Source: Methylophilus sp. 14
Lineage (GTDB): Bacteria > Pseudomonadota > Gammaproteobacteria > Burkholderiales > Methylophilaceae
Assembly: GCF_015354345.1 (NCBI RefSeq)
Contig: NZ_JADKYS010000003.1
Location: forward strand, 154,856 to 218,855
DNA length: 64,000 bases
Direction: 5' to 3'
Position numbers and translations under genes: made by a program. Positions within the stretch are counted from its first letter, which is position 1; each line of letters begins with the position of its first letter. Below the pieces are notes generated by a model. The model saw only the letters and a list, made by a program, of their open reading frames with translations, was not told the DNA's origin and did not search any database. Shown piece by piece: positions 9,549 to 14,904 of the stretch.

Positions 9549-11366
9549 ATGGCAGTTCACATGGCACGCAACCTTAGAAATATCGCAATTATCGCGCACG
9601 TTGACCACGGTAAAACAACCATGGTCGATAAACTACTTCAACAATCAGGTACCTTTGCCTCACACCAAGCGGTCACTGAGCGCGTGATGGATAGCAACGA
9701 TCTGGAAAAAGAGCGTGGCATTACTATTCTGGCTAAAAATACGGCTTTAACCTATGAAGGCACGCACATTAATATTGTCGACACACCGGGCCATGCGGAC
9801 TTTGGTGGTGAGGTTGAGCGTGTATTAGGCATGGTGGATGGCGTATTGTTATTGGTTGATGCCGTAGATGGCCCGATGCCACAAACACGCTTCGTGACTA
9901 AAAAAGCATTGGCCCTCGGTTTGAAGCCTATCGTGGTGATTAACAAAGTGGACCGCCCAAGTGCACGTCCTGATTGGGTAATTAATCATACGTTTGATTT
10001 GTTTGCCAACCTGGGCGCGACTGATGAGCAATTAGACTTCCCCGTGGTCTACGCCTCAGCGTTGAATGGCTTTGCTACCTTGGATATGAGCAAACCTTCA
10101 GACAATATGCGTGCCTTGTTTGACACGATTCTAAGCCATGTTGAGCCACCTAAAGGCGACAGCGAAGCGCCTTTGCAATTGCAAATTTCTGCTCTGGATT
10201 ACTCTACCTACACAGGCCGCCTGGGCGTTGGCCGTGTGACCAATGGTCGTATCAAGCCAGGCCAGGTTGTGGCAGTGATGCGTGAAGACGAACAAGTCGC
10301 GCAAGGCCGTATCAACCAGGTATTAGGTTTTAAAGGTTTGGAGCGCGTACCGGTTGAAGAAGCTGAAGCCGGTGACATTGTGATTATTTCCGGTATTGAA
10401 GAAATTGGTATCGGTTTCACCATCTGTGACCGCGACAAGCCAGTGGGTTTGCCGCATTTGGGCGTGGATGAGCCAACACTGACCATGGACTTTATGGTCA
10501 ACACCTCACCATTAGCCGGTACAGAAGGTAAGTTTATTACTTCACGTCAAATCCGTGACCGTTTAACCAAAGAGTTGCTGGTGAACGTGGCCTTGCGTGT
10601 TGAAGATACCGAAGACACCGATGTATTCCGCGTGTCTGGCCGTGGCGAGTTGCACTTGACGATTCTGCTGGAAAACATGCGTCGTGAAGGCTTTGAAATT
10701 GCTGTGGGTAAACCACGCGTCGTATTCAGAGAAATCAATGGTGAAAAATGTGAACCATACGAAATCCTGACCGTGGATCTGGAAGACGAGAACCAGGGTG
10801 CGGTGATGGAGGAGTTGGGACGCCGCCGTGGTGAGATGTCCAATATGGAATCTGATGGTAATGGCCGCACGCGCCTGGAGTATCGTATTCCAGCCCGTGG
10901 ACTGATTGGCTTCCAGGGGGAGTTCTTAACATTGACCCGCGGTACTGGCTTGATGGCGCATATTTTTGATGAATACGCGCCTGTTAAAGCCGATATGCCT
11001 GGTCGTCGTAATGGCGTGCTGATCTCAGCCGAGCAGGGCGAAGCCGTGGCTTATGCCTTGTGGAAGCTGCAGGATCGCGGCAAGATGTTCTCCAGCCCAG
11101 GTGACAGATTGTACGAAGGCATGATTATCGGTATTCACAGCCGCGACAACGATCTGGTTGTGAACCCGATTAAAGGTAAGCAATTAACTAACGTGCGTGC
11201 TTCAGGCACCGATGAAGCGGTTCGTTTGATTCCGCCAGTCTCACTAAGCCTGGAAAGTGCCGTTGAGTTTATTGACGACGACGAGTTGGTCGAAATCACA
11301 CCAAAAACAATTCGTCTGCGTAAACGCTACTTGTTGGAGCACGAGCGTAAACGTGCTGGTAAATAG
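9549..11366 (+). CDS. typA: Translational GTPase TypA/BipA
   Basis: A 605-residue ribosome-binding GTPase of the elongation-factor family that assists ribosome assembly and stress adaptation, particularly in the cold. The G motifs are complete: AHVDHGKTT (G1), RGITI (G2), DTPGH (G3), NKVD (G4) and SALNG (G5). EF-G-like domains and the TypA-specific C-terminal domain follow ([31 protein letters not shown]). The length fits the family. Two start codons are possible, 9549 and 9561; neither has a clear Shine-Dalgarno sequence, and the second gives the more typical N-terminus [20 protein letters not shown]. Confidence 0.97.
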
Positions 11367-11384: not shown

Positions 11385-11412
11385 AAAAAGCCAGCTGAAT
11401 GCTGGCTTTTTT
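11385..11412 (+). terminator. Rho-independent terminator after typA
   Basis: Perfect stem AGCCAGC/GCTGGCT with a five-base loop and a six-base T run, 19 bases after the typA stop. Confidence 0.92.
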
Positions 11413-11471
11413 GTTGCCCGTCTCTTGCTTGTGATGGGTTAATTTTTATTATCGCAACAGTCCTAAATAAT

Positions 11472-11548
11472 GTTAACTTTTGATATAATTGAAAACATAA
11501 AATAACTAAAGTTAATTTTAAGTGGCCAATGGACGCATCTAAGTTAAC
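11472..11548 (+). promoter_or_regulatory. Repeat-flanked extended -10 promoter of the double-glycine peptide gene
   Basis: TGATATAAT (11481-11489) is a full consensus extended -10 element. It is bracketed by an inverted repeat, GTTAACTTT at 11472-11480 and AAAGTTAA at 11508-11515, and a third copy, AAGTTAAC, lies at 11541-11548. Three copies of one word in 77 bases around a promoter suggest a regulator-binding region, although AT-rich DNA raises the chance rate. The transcript would carry a leader of about 95 bases. Confidence 0.55.
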
Positions 11549-11591
11549 GCCGTGAAAGATGTATGTTTAATTTCAATTGAGGAGAAAAGTA

Positions 11592-11849
11592 ATGGCAATG
11601 CATGAATTGAATGCTGTAGAAGTTGACGTGGTATCTGGTGGTTTGGGCGCTGGTATTGGCTACTATGGCACGCCAGAAGAAACGATTGCTGCGGGCAATG
11701 TGTTAATTGCTGCGGTTGGTGGCATTGTGGGTGTGACAGCCGTTTTGGGTTCAGTGTTAAATGGCCCATCAGGCCCGGCAGTGGTCTCTGCTTTATCTGG
11801 CGTACTGTCTGGCGGCGTTTTGGGCTTGTTGTTCGGCCGCAGCCAATAA
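11592..11849 (+). CDS. Double-glycine leader peptide, class II bacteriocin-like
   Basis: An 85-residue precursor. ATG 11592 follows AGGAG by seven bases. Residues 1-17 form a double-glycine leader, MAMHELNAVEVDVVSGG, with the spaced EL, V, V and GG pattern cut by C39-peptidase ABC exporters. The 68-residue remainder is Gly/Ala/Val-rich with GxxxG-like spacing (GAGIG, AAVGGIVG, SGGVLGLLFG), two hydrophobic stretches and no cysteine. This matches two-peptide (class IIb) bacteriocins and related small secreted peptides of Gram-negative bacteria. The gene has its own promoter and terminator and stands alone: no exporter, immunity protein or second peptide gene lies nearby. Antimicrobial, signalling or other roles are all possible. 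Confidence 0.75.
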   Translation: MAMHELNAVEVDVVSGGLGAGIGYYGTPEETIAAGNVLIAAVGGIVGVTAVLGSVLNGPSGPAVVSALSGVLSGGVLGLLFGRSQ

Positions 11850-11872: not shown

Positions 11873-11899
11873 AACAGCCTCGTCAGGGGCTGTTTTTTT
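11873..11899 (+). terminator. Rho-independent terminator after the leader-peptide gene
   Basis: Perfect stem AACAGCC/GGCTGTT with an eight-base loop, followed by seven T, 23 bases after the stop codon. Confidence 0.92.
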
Positions 11900-12021
11900 A
11901 TGTCTGTCACCTGCGTGGTCTGTTTCTGATTCCGGGCCATGACTCATTTGCTTGCGGCCTTGGTGTTTGCAAAATAACTGCGATACACTTGGCAATAAAA
12001 TAATCAGTAGGCCTGTGCATC

Positions 12022-12834
12022 ATGGAATCGCTAGAACAGTATCGCGTCAACCCGAAGAAGTTTGCTTTAAAGCAATTTAAGCCTGAGGATAAGTCTGCCC
12101 GCACTGGCGATAAAGAAAGTGATGCCAGCTTGCTTGCTGAGCTGGCGCATCAAATCAATGTCCGGCAAGATATCCTGCATGCGGAGGGCAAGCATAAGGT
12201 ATTGCTGATTTTGCAAGGCATGGATACCAGTGGTAAGGACGGTACCATCAAGCATGTGTTCAGCGCCTGCGACCCTTTAGGCATTCGCCTGGCCAGTTTT
12301 AAGGCGCCGAGTGCTGACGAACTGGCGCATGATTATTTGTGGCGTGTGCACGCCCAGGTGCCATCCAAAGGCGAGTTGGCGATTTTTAATCGCAGTCACT
12401 ATGAGGATGTATTGATTGTGAAGGTGCATGACTGGATAGACGACGCAGAGTGCAAGCGTCGTTACCAGCAAATCAATGACTTCGAGCGCATGCTCAGTGA
12501 AACTGGCACCACCATCATTAAATGCTTTTTGCATATCTCTAGGGCGGAGCAAAAGGAGCGTTTACAAGAACGCCTGGATGATCCGACCAAACATTGGAAA
12601 TTTAATCCCAAGGATCTGGATGAGCGCGCCTTATGGGATCGCTACATGGATGCCTATGAAGTGGCACTGAAAGAGACATCCACGCAACACGCCCCGTGGT
12701 ATGTGATTCCGGCCGATTCCAAAACCAATCGAAATCTACTGGTTTCCCAACTATTGTTGGAAGCCTTGAACCAGTTGCCGTTGGCGTATCCCGCCAAGCC
12801 CAAAGCATGGGATAAGCTCACTATTGAGGATTAA
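12022..12834 (+). CDS. ppk2: Polyphosphate kinase 2 (PPK2 family)
   Basis: A 270-residue kinase that transfers phosphate between polyphosphate and nucleotides. The family motifs are visible: Walker A GMDTSGKDG (about residues 70-78), NRSHYEDVL, the lid region with R and K residues (SRAEQKERLQERLDDPTKHW), and WYVIPADSKTNRN near the end. Length and a single PPK2 domain suggest the class that phosphorylates nucleoside mono- or diphosphates; the direction and substrate cannot be fixed from sequence. It stands 82 bases before a histidine kinase gene on the same strand, which may or may not be cotranscribed. Confidence 0.92.
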   Translation: MESLEQYRVNPKKFALKQFKPEDKSARTGDKESDASLLAELAHQINVRQDILHAEGKHKVLLILQGMDTSGKDGTIKHVFSACDPLGIRLASFKAPSADELAHDYLWRVHAQVPSKGELAIFNRSHYEDVLIVKVHDWIDDAECKRRYQQINDFERMLSETGTTIIKCFLHISRAEQKERLQERLDDPTKHWKFNPKDLDERALWDRYMDAYEVALKETSTQHAPWYVIPADSKTNRNLLVSQLLLEALNQLPLAYPAKPKAWDKLTIED

Positions 12835-12915
12835 AGTTGTAATTTAATGATTTTACGCTGTGTCAATACGGACGGATTACAGTTTAATAACGCTGAATTC
12901 AATCATGGTTAAAAA

Positions 12916-14253
12916 ATGAGCCTACGCTTTCGACTCAACTTGTTGGTCACCATGCTGTCGCTGATCTTTTTGATCGCAGCCGGTATTGTGTTGGTGAGAG
13001 ATACCAAAGACAGCATTCGTGAGCGTGTGGAGGCGGCGACACGCGTCACGGTGCAATTGCTGGATACAGTGATTGTCAGCTCGGCCATGAACCCCAGTCT
13101 GGGCCCTACACATTATGTGCTGCAAGATTTTTTGCGCTCGCTGGGCTATGTGCGCAGCAGCCGCATCGAGTTGTACGACTACTCCAATGATCCCTTGTAC
13201 CTGTCACCGACGTCCACATTCAAGTCCGAGATCAATCCGCCACAATGGTTTGTCAAACTGGTGGCGCCGCAAGTGGAAACAGTGACGCGGCGGGTGCGTT
13301 ATGGCACGCTGATTATCAGCTCCAGCGCAGAAGGTTCTATCCGCGAGGCGTGGTCAGGGTTTCTGCAATTGATGACCATGGGCATCGGCTTTTTTGTGCT
13401 GCTTAATTTGTTGGTCTATGGTTTGCTGAGCCACGCTTTGCGTCCGGTCAGGCATATCCTGCATGCGATCAACCGCATTGAGCAAGGGGATTTAACCACG
13501 CGCCTGGAACGCTTTTCGCTGCCTGAGTTTGATAAGATTGGCAAGAGCTTGAACCAGATGGCCCTGTCGCTGGATGCCGAACGGCAACTGGAGCAAAACC
13601 GCCAGCTGACACAACTGATCCAGCAGCATATCGAAGATGAACGTCGCAGTCTGGCGCGCGAACTGCATGATGAGTTAGGGCAATACGTCACAGCAATCAA
13701 GACGTTTGCCGTGGCGATTGTCAATAAAACCAAAGAAAGTACGCCGGATATCGCGGCCAATGCGCAAACCATTGTCGCTGCCGCCAATCATATTTACGAC
13801 GGCATGCATAACATCATCCGCCAGTTGCGTCCGGCCGCCATGGATAATATGGGTCTGGTGGAAACGCTGAGCGACATGGTTTCTGGCTACCAGGCGCAGC
13901 ATCCTGAGTTGCAAATCCAGCTGCATCTGGCGGGGCAGTTCCAGCCGATGGGCGAAAATGTGAACATCAATATTTACCGTATTGTGCAGGAAGCGGTGAA
14001 TAACGCGATTAAACACGCGCATGCGCAATGCATCAATGTCCATCTGCTTACGGATGCAGAAGGATTGCGCCTGATGATTTGTGATGATGGCGTCGGCATG
14101 CGGCTGGACACCGTAGATCAGAGCCGTCACTTCGGCCTGCTGGGCATGCGCGAGCGTGTGCAGGCCTTGCATGGGCAATTTAAAGTGGTGTCGCAGCCTG
14201 AAGCAGGCCGTGGAACCACCTTGGATATTCGGTTGCCTATACAGGCAGCCTAA
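12916..14253 (+). CDS. Sensor histidine kinase, NarX/UhpB type
   Basis: A 445-residue inner-membrane sensor. A first membrane helix (about 8-28) is followed by a periplasmic region of some 125 residues without a recognised domain, a second helix (about 155-178), a HAMP linker (LRPVRHILHAINRIEQGDLT), a HisKA_3 dimerisation domain with phospho-accepting His251 in RELHDELGQ, and an ATPase domain (EAVNNAIKHAHA, ICDDGVGM, FGLLGMRERV). The kinase core pairs with LuxR-type response regulators, and one follows 18 bases downstream. The signal is unknown. Confidence 0.92.
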   Translation: MSLRFRLNLLVTMLSLIFLIAAGIVLVRDTKDSIRERVEAATRVTVQLLDTVIVSSAMNPSLGPTHYVLQDFLRSLGYVRSSRIELYDYSNDPLYLSPTSTFKSEINPPQWFVKLVAPQVETVTRRVRYGTLIISSSAEGSIREAWSGFLQLMTMGIGFFVLLNLLVYGLLSHALRPVRHILHAINRIEQGDLTTRLERFSLPEFDKIGKSLNQMALSLDAERQLEQNRQLTQLIQQHIEDERRSLARELHDELGQYVTAIKTFAVAIVNKTKESTPDIAANAQTIVAAANHIYDGMHNIIRQLRPAAMDNMGLVETLSDMVSGYQAQHPELQIQLHLAGQFQPMGENVNINIYRIVQEAVNNAIKHAHAQCINVHLLTDAEGLRLMICDDGVGMRLDTVDQSRHFGLLGMRERVQALHGQFKVVSQPEAGRGTTLDIRLPIQAA

Positions 14254-14271: not shown

Positions 14272-14904
14272 GTGATAAGTGTGATGCTGGTAGATGACCA
14301 TGCAGTGGTCAGGATGGGCTTTAAAATGCTGCTCGAGTCAGACCAGGAAATCAAGGTGATTGCTGAAGCTGAGAGTGGTGAGGCGGCCATCAAGGCCTAT
14401 GTCGAGCATCACCCGCAAGTGGTGGTGATGGACATTACCATGCCGGGCATCGGTGGCATGGAAGCCATAGAGCGGATTCTGGCCAAAGACAACCATGCGC
14501 GTATCCTGGTGCTGTCCGCGCATGAAGATTCCGTGCATCCCAAACGCGTGCTCAATGCAGGCGCCATGGGTTATGTGACCAAGCGTAGCGCGGCAGAAGA
14601 GCTGATTAAAGCGATTCGCAGTGTGGCGCAGGGTAAAAAATACATAGAAGCCAGCGTGGCGCAACAAATGGCGATTCAGCAGTTGTCCGGCGAACAAAAC
14701 CCGGTGGATGTGCTCAGTGAACGCGAGTTTGAAGTGTTTATGTCGCTGGCACGCGGTAAATCGACCAACGAGATTGCGGAAACCTTGTTTTTGAGCCCGC
14801 GCACGGTGGGCACGCATTTATACAATATCAAGCAAAAGCTTAATGCACAAAACTCGGCAGAAATTGCCCTGATTGCCATGCGCTGTGGTTTGCTTGAACC
14901 CTAA
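14272..14904 (+). CDS. LuxR/NarL-family response regulator
   Basis: A 210-residue DNA-binding regulator and partner of the preceding kinase. The receiver domain (1-120) has acidic Asp8/Asp9 in LVDDH, phosphoacceptor Asp54 in VVMDITMPG and a conserved Lys in GYVTKRSAAEEL. The C-terminal LuxR helix-turn-helix reads LSEREFEVFMSLARGKSTNE followed by IAETLFLSPRTVGTHLYNIK. The start is GTG at 14272, preceded by AGAGGGAG. Targets are unknown; related pairs control respiration, transport or carbon use. Confidence 0.93.
   Translation: MISVMLVDDHAVVRMGFKMLLESDQEIKVIAEAESGEAAIKAYVEHHPQVVVMDITMPGIGGMEAIERILAKDNHARILVLSAHEDSVHPKRVLNAGAMGYVTKRSAAEELIKAIRSVAQGKKYIEASVAQQMAIQQLSGEQNPVDVLSEREFEVFMSLARGKSTNEIAETLFLSPRTVGTHLYNIKQKLNAQNSAEIALIAMRCGLLEP

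Follow-up and report, generated by a model that had tools for sequence, protein, structure and literature searches.

How does a peptide precursor with a double-glycine (GG) leader fit into a genome when nothing beside its gene could export it? The question is raised by a small gene of Methylophilus sp. 14, encoding 85 amino acids and located in the stretch of DNA analyzed here (64,000 nucleotides; hereafter, the window). As the original prediction held, no exporter, immunity, or partner gene is adjacent; the peptide gene is the only one between typA and ppk2, the product of which is a PPK2 protein according to Pfam (Table 1). Also in agreement with that prediction, the translation divides into 17 leader residues, ending in VSGG, and 68 residues of predicted mature peptide, the start codon is preceded by a ribosome-binding site, and the frame is followed by a terminator that was listed by the terminator scan.

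Table 1. Features of the peptide locus and its surroundings (positions in the window)
Feature	Position	Strand	Evidence
typA	9549..11366		
Hairpin with T-tract after typA	~11389..11412		by eye
Candidate operator: TGTTAAC and imperfect inverted partner, overlapping the -10 element	11471..11494	+	motif picked post hoc
Extended -10 element TGATATAAT, without -35 consensus	11481..11489	+	by eye; at most one change across 5 orthologues
GTTAACGCCGTGAA block in 5' leader	11543..11556	+	identical in 5/5 orthologues
Shine-Dalgarno sequence AGGAG, 7 nt before ATG	11580..11584	+	sequence; conserved in orthologues
Precursor peptide gene, 85 aa, double-glycine leader	11592..11849	+	ORF read, orthologues, dN/dS
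Leader (17 codons), MAMHELNAVEVDVVSGG; C39 predicted to cleave after GG	11592..11642	+	translation; independent leader profile, E = 0.012
Predicted mature core, 68 residues, hydrophobic and Gly rich	11643..11846	+	composition, weak structure model, G(xxxG)3 run
Intrinsic terminator: hairpin (11873-11894) and T-tract	11873..11901	+	terminator scan; kept in 5/5 orthologues
ppk2	12022..12834		Pfam (PPK2)
Sensor kinase, HAMP/HisKA_3	12916..14253		
LuxR-type response regulator	14272..14904		

The frame is a real gene. Among 187 Methylophilaceae genomes, six contain a match to the window peptide, five of them at full length (the genome under study, G000, and G065, G066, G073, and G074), all within the genus Methylophilus, where the carriers make up 5 of 22 genomes. 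The sixth match (G106; E = 0.02) sits inside a frame of 332 amino acids and was set aside as unrelated. With 81 to 89% identity to the window peptide, the four other orthologous proteins provide the homologues with a conserved leader for which the original prediction had advised a search, and the gene occupies the same place between typA and ppk2 in all five carriers. For each of the 10 orthologue pairs, dN/dS was between 0.014 and 0.169 (dS, 0.79 to 2.25), which means that the core is under strong purifying selection; the ribosome-binding site, the extended -10 element, the GTTAACGCCGTGAA block, and the terminator are conserved across the orthologues as well. That we are dealing with a chance frame, or with a decayed gene whose product is not exported, might be suggested by the small size of the ORF and its lack of a family match, but given five orthologues, these dN/dS values, and the conserved control elements, we consider this negligible, as the original prediction had anticipated. 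In the G073 orthologue (L009:5021-5275, minus strand), CTG replaces the first ATG, so that translation may start at codon 3, and the leader ends in VAGG instead of VSGG.

Database searches placed the window peptide in no curated family: NCBIfam returned nothing up to E = 10, no Pfam match exceeded its cutoff (the best, with E = 6.2, was to a family other than Bacteriocin_IIc), and the plasmid collection contained nothing resembling the peptide at E ≤ 1. Matches to profile A1 elsewhere in the order (15 of 398 other genomes; E ≤ 0.01) all fell within frames of 293 to 410 amino acids, 12 of them with internal stops, and were set aside as low-complexity sequence; three matches of this profile in the PDB (E = 0.85 to 1.1) were taken as chance.

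Regarding transcription, the consensus promoter that had been proposed amounts to an extended -10 element only, TGATATAAT; a promoter scan found no -35/-10 match on the plus strand between typA and the gene. The hairpin following typA was recognized by eye and is missing from the list of the terminator scan. An RNA family within the typA-ppk2 spacer, which includes the GTTAACGCCGTGAA block, was also considered and was rejected, as Rfam gave no match up to E = 1.

At the typA-ppk2 site, the 22 Methylophilus genomes differ considerably. Besides the five spacers with the peptide gene, there are five short ones without it (119 to 278 bp; G064, G069, G075, G076, and G079) and four longer ones, while eight genomes were left unscored, no ppk2 being present within the 1.5 kb read. 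The longer spacers carry other frames, of 124 (G059), 237 (G060), 251 (G061), and 247 (G062) amino acids, and in G068 about 2 kb separates typA from ppk2.

Where, then, is the exporter? The original prediction required a distant one, and the genome indeed contains a C39 peptidase, the only match to this domain at E ≤ 1, with 126.7 bits. The domain forms the start of a protein of 707 amino acids that continues with an ABC membrane domain and an ATPase domain and is encoded in an operon in the order HlyD-family protein (426 amino acids from the first start), C39 ABC protein, and TolC-family protein (488 amino acids). This operon is located on contig C10, whereas the window gene is found at about 166 kb of the 542-kb contig C9. 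Residues 20 to 699 of the exporter could be aligned to chain 4ry2 (PCAT1), and the alignment brings the peptidase motifs (Q/Cys, His, and Asp) of both into register. All seven intact exporters read have these motifs, and the two exporters that deviate from the plain ATPase pattern carry near-standard variants of the ATPase motifs.

When a strong exporter is defined by a cutoff of 50 bits, the operon is found in 8 of the 22 Methylophilus genomes, including G079, where the gene is split over two contigs, and in all eight a small VSGG peptide is encoded directly downstream. C39 matches as such are more widespread (18 of 22 genomes at E ≤ 0.001 and 15 of 22 above the Pfam cutoff); the weaker ones, in the genus and in the family, were not counted as this exporter. 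Across the family, C39 matches at E ≤ 1e-15 were found in 20 of 187 genomes, 12 of them outside the genus (60 to 93 bits). Eight of these 12 (G033, G109, G110, G114, G136, G141, G144, and G146), belonging to two other genera of the family, have C39 frames of 242 to 280 amino acids, too short for an ABC part and representing a different C39 system, perhaps one akin to the C39 systems of functional amyloid export.

Because the exporter lies on another contig, it is solely the likeness of the leaders that ties it to the window peptide. Directly downstream of the TolC gene, a peptide is encoded that consists of MAIQSLKKVEVEAVSGG followed by 60 residues, and the window leader and this leader type were combined into a 12-row alignment (A3). 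In the genome under study, A3 found three peptides at E ≤ 0.1, i.e., the window peptide, the exporter neighbor, and a 66-amino-acid peptide on contig C1 (E = 0.0018), and a fourth match (E = 1.96) was located 410 bp upstream of the latter. Other GG leaders, which the original prediction had proposed to look for, are thus present, and the epithet "orphan" that it had given to the peptide applies to its position only, since the exporter neighbor has this leader as well. The two C1 genes (C1:986.5-987.2 kb; L058:6543-6761 and L058:6953-7153) form a tandem pair encoding paralogous peptides of 72 and 66 amino acids. These begin with MRELTLSEVDAISGG and MRELTMTEVEVVSGG, respectively, and have paralogous cores and leaders of the MREL type ending in ISGG or VSGG; the second peptide ends in TPRPF. 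Situated just after smpB (Pfam SmpB), each gene of the pair has its own ribosome-binding site and upstream region. In addition, two proteins with PEP-CTERM-like ends were seen by eye at L008:8050-8616 (plus strand; VPEPESYGLLMAGLGLVGFAARRK) and L058:12556-13191 (minus strand; VPEPDTFSLLALGMLGLTG).

Matches to A3 occurred in 8 of 22 Methylophilus genomes at E ≤ 0.1 and in 8 of 187 family genomes at E ≤ 0.01, and the eight positive genomes are the eight with the strong exporter, a correspondence that exists partly by construction, since all eight contributed rows to A3. No A3 match was found among the 12 family genomes outside the genus with weaker C39 matches. To test the link independently, the eight exporter-neighbor leaders alone were turned into a profile, which was searched against the six frames of the 64-kb window and of two further stretches of the same genome, with E values scaled to the genome. 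It retrieved the window peptide with 17.7 bits (E = 0.012) as the sole match in the window; beyond this peptide and its own row, it found only the second C1 peptide (peptide B; E = 0.015) and did not reach the first (peptide A). The reversed control gave a best E value of 150.

Further peptides of this kind exist elsewhere. G063 and G079 encode another one at a further locus (MAIQELNR...), and when 399 sampled genomes of the order were searched, three had A3 matches at E ≤ 1e-4 (G000, G247, and G283). In the last two, which belong to other families, peptides starting with MAI.ELNKQEI..VSGG or MREL..VSG flank genes that were judged by eye, from their translations, to be HlyD and C39-ABC-like (G247, L102:7113-7358 and 12738-12962; G283, L103:7985-8680 and 12452-12763), so that the MAI and MREL leader types recur together with the HlyD/C39-ABC build.

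In summary, a leader of the kind expected of PCAT substrates (ending in GG or GA, with conserved hydrophobic or acidic positions) and a C39 exporter with intact Cys-His-Asp occur in the same genome. On the basis of this leader and of PCAT biology, we consider it very likely that the window peptide is exported and cleaved by this exporter, which is probably used by four or more cargoes from three loci. On the typA tree, the peptide requires two changes and the exporter three; the peptide may have had a single origin. Tested against shared ancestry, its co-occurrence with the exporter is reduced to three independent pairs (sign test, P = 1), and the five orthologues may represent one lineage in which the two are found together by shared descent.

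The 68 residues of the predicted core are hydrophobic (GRAVY, 1.01), with 24% Gly, a net charge of -1, and no Cys. The GxxxG-like motifs that had been pointed out include one uninterrupted run, GVLSGGVLGLLFG, in which four Gly residues are spaced by four [G(xxxG)3] and which is kept, free of Pro and charge, in all five orthologues; as a pair count, in contrast, they do not exceed what composition predicts (5 versus 3.4 expected; P = 0.215), and the count was therefore dropped as evidence. The run itself is mildly unusual, its statistical support being weak (shuffle P, 0.034 to 0.056). AlphaFold2, supplied with the five sequences, produced a best model with a mean pLDDT of 63 (50 to 53 for the other four) and a pTM of 0.31. 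Helices were predicted at precursor residues 28 to 57 and 61 to 82, with block-mean pLDDT values of 68 to 79 over residues 31 to 80, and the G(xxxG)3 run falls in the second one; the model thus weakly suggests a hairpin of two hydrophobic helices. In the other cargoes, zipper runs of five were found in the exporter neighbor of G000 (P = 0.03) and in the extra peptide of G063 (P = 0.006), a run of four in the exporter neighbor of G069 (P = 0.08), and runs of two in the C1 pair (P about 0.5). With such differing zipper runs, the cargo cores do not form one family, and the leader is what they have in common.

Among known systems, several come close. For class II microcins, PMC10233263 gives a GG leader of 15 to 18 amino acids, a core of 60 to 90, and an exporter composed of a C39 ABC protein with Cys-His-Asp, a membrane fusion protein (MFP), and TolC; their immunity gene is typically adjacent. 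With 17 plus 68 amino acids and a C39 ABC/HlyD/TolC exporter, the window peptide resembles microcin V with its CvaA/CvaB/TolC. It differs in that its gene lies away from the exporter, that no adjacent immunity gene was found in the spacers of the five genomes, that the organism is a methylotroph not belonging to the Enterobacteriaceae, and that the plasmid collection holds nothing like its core. Class II microcins (PMC10233263 and PMC9746304) fit the leader and the exporter but not the missing immunity gene. Compared over 15 positions with the microcin V leader given in PMC10231218, the C1 pair has 10 and 9 identical residues, the window peptide 8, and the exporter neighbor 6.

The Cdz bacteriocin of Caulobacter (CdzC/CdzD) is made of glycine-zipper peptides of 84 to 86 amino acids that leave the cell by type I export, and PMC5380434 characterizes such peptides by a length of 60 to 151 amino acids, a leader ending in G[G/A/S], an uninterrupted glycine zipper, and a short polar or charged C terminus. 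Judged by these listed features rather than by the Cdz HMM, the window peptide has all four, with 85 amino acids, VSGG, and GVLSGGVLGLLFG followed by RSQ. The cdz genes, however, are clustered with the exporter and the CdzI immunity gene, neither of which adjoins the window gene; of the cargoes, the exporter neighbor lies within about 10 kb of type I secretion genes, as specified for Cdz, and the window gene does not. Class IIb two-peptide bacteriocins, to which the original prediction had likened the peptide, share the GG leader and GxxxG motifs, but the window gene has no adjoining partner or immunity gene, the spacer contains no other small gene, NCBIfam gave no match, and the exporter has HlyD and TolC as partners, as in Gram-negative bacteria, so that membership in this class was rejected. 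In another betaproteobacterium, Neisseria, the Nap peptides resemble bacteriocins, have a GG motif, and come with a C39 protease, but are reported to have shown no antimicrobial activity; they are cationic, have 16 to 36 residues, and are encoded in an island that also carries a LagC-like gene for immunity, unlike the window core with its 68 residues and net charge of -1.

In the typA-ppk2 spacers of the five carriers, every small frame that they have in common overlaps either the peptide gene or the terminator behind it, and no separate small frame is common to all genomes at the tandem locus (five genomes) or beside the exporter (eight genomes); frames of at least 25 amino acids that are shared by all genomes at these two loci lie inside smpB or coincide with the peptide genes or the next gene. 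A lipoprotein gene beside the exporter peptide was considered as an immunity gene and rejected, being a general gene present in 21 of 22 genomes. Thus, no separate conserved small gene, as a candidate for immunity or partner, was found at the three cargo loci, although an unlinked immunity gene may exist.

These observations bear directly on the idea that the peptide is a bacteriocin of the Cdz or microcin type, the core of which would insert into or aggregate on neighboring cells and kill them, the producer being protected by an unlinked immunity gene or by lacking the receptor. Beyond the four Cdz features and the microcin V-like leaders at the tandem locus, two other peptides of the set match Bacteriocin_IIc below its cutoff of 27.1 bits, namely, the exporter neighbor in G069 (11.8 bits) and the extra peptide in G063 (12.7 bits), and Bacteroides bacteriocins with a GG motif but without an immunity protein are reported in PMC10233263. 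The three loci without a separate shared small frame, the general nature of the lipoprotein, and the net charge of -1 speak against it, as does the strong purifying selection on the core; for a bacteriocin, a core so conserved without an adjacent immunity gene is unusual. We regard this explanation as possible and hold it only tentatively.

A lack of immunity genes would follow naturally if the cargoes were nontoxic. In Synechococcus elongatus, biofilm formation needs EbfG1 to EbfG4, each GG motif contributing, with PteB as the exporter (PMC4997328), and peptides of this kind in Methylophilus would be redundant cargoes that build or signal attachment. The plan is the same, one C39 exporter with four small GG-motif proteins (a likeness of layout), and the hydrophobic, zipper-bearing, conserved core would suit such a role. 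The ebfG genes, however, stand side by side in one transcript, in contrast to the three separate loci of the Methylophilus cargoes, and we consider this explanation somewhat unlikely.

Could the dispersed loci nevertheless be under joint control? In G000, each of the four cargo genes, and hlyD as well, has the sequence TGTTAAY within the 260 nucleotides before it (window, 11471-11494; otherwise upstream of L008:10121 and 15186 and of L053:1091 and 1501). At the window locus, where it overlaps the -10 element, it forms a palindrome, TGTTAAT-N10-ATTAACA, in G065 and G074 and with N12 in G073, as judged by eye. Dinucleotide shuffles of the individual upstream regions contain TGTTAAY in 8 to 16% of cases (product, 1.9e-5), and among 73 regions preceding frames of at least 120 amino acids, 5 have the element, that of hlyD included. 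Across genomes, 23 regions upstream of cargo genes were inspected, and it is present in 18 of them (window type, 5 of 5; tandem type, 8 of 8; exporter neighbors, 5 of 8; extra peptides, 0 of 2) and in all five hlyD regions looked at, counts that include many orthologous and hence nonindependent regions for an AT-rich motif chosen after looking. We therefore treat TGTTAAY as a lead only, i.e., as a candidate operator that the loci may share.

A secreted signal for cell-density sensing was considered as well: GG leaders also serve the pheromones of Gram-positive bacteria, the TGTTAAY element precedes the four cargo genes as well as the exporter operon, and a histidine kinase and a LuxR-type regulator are encoded just past ppk2. 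However, the kinase follows ppk2 in all six peptide-less genomes read (80 to 94% identical), as it does in all four other carriers, and the regulator was seen in five of these six (in G079, the contig ends first) and in the four other carriers. Since the pair is found with and without the peptide, it is not a special partner and was rejected as its sensor; the sensor part of the kinase resembles LapD_MoxY_N, below the cutoff. With 68 hydrophobic residues being long for a pheromone in addition, we judge a signaling role to be very unlikely.

Taken together, we favor the explanation that the window gene encodes a cargo of the genome's single C39 type I system and that its zipper core acts at cell surfaces, which we consider likely. 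While the gene, its leader, the exporter, the sharing of the leader, and the conservation are evident from the sequences, we infer the following course of secretion, cleavage, assembly, and function: the C39 domain of the exporter would bind the leader and cut after VSGG, the 68-residue core would leave through the ABC/HlyD/TolC channel, and outside, the predicted two-helix hairpin with its glycine zipper would self-associate and act at cell surfaces. If the peptide is exported, a surface-acting antibacterial of the Cdz or microcin kind comes close to being an even prospect, an EbfG-like peptide acting in biofilms or at surfaces is a minority possibility of some weight, and a signal or other function is unlikely.

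As dispersed cargoes of one microcin-type exporter, without adjacent immunity genes, these peptides represent a variant on a known exporter theme. The published Cdz screen (PMC5380434) covered about 10 kb around the exporter; a screen of that type would miss two of the three cargo loci, as both lie elsewhere than the exporter. Judged by titles and abstract openings, none of the papers found on Methylophilus and bacteriocins deals with such peptides. We speculate, while considering it unlikely as a whole, that one C39 exporter and at least four immunity-free hydrophobic peptides from three loci, under joint TGTTAAY-type control that includes the exporter operon, make up a dispersed secretome that coats Methylophilus cells with a self-assembling glycine-zipper layer instead of acting as diffusible antibiotics; should this improbable scenario be true, it would have no described counterpart in methylotrophs. 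More generally, strongly conserved cargoes without an adjacent immunity gene make it possible to test whether Gram-negative bacteria use GG-leader peptides chiefly as weapons or as building or community factors too.
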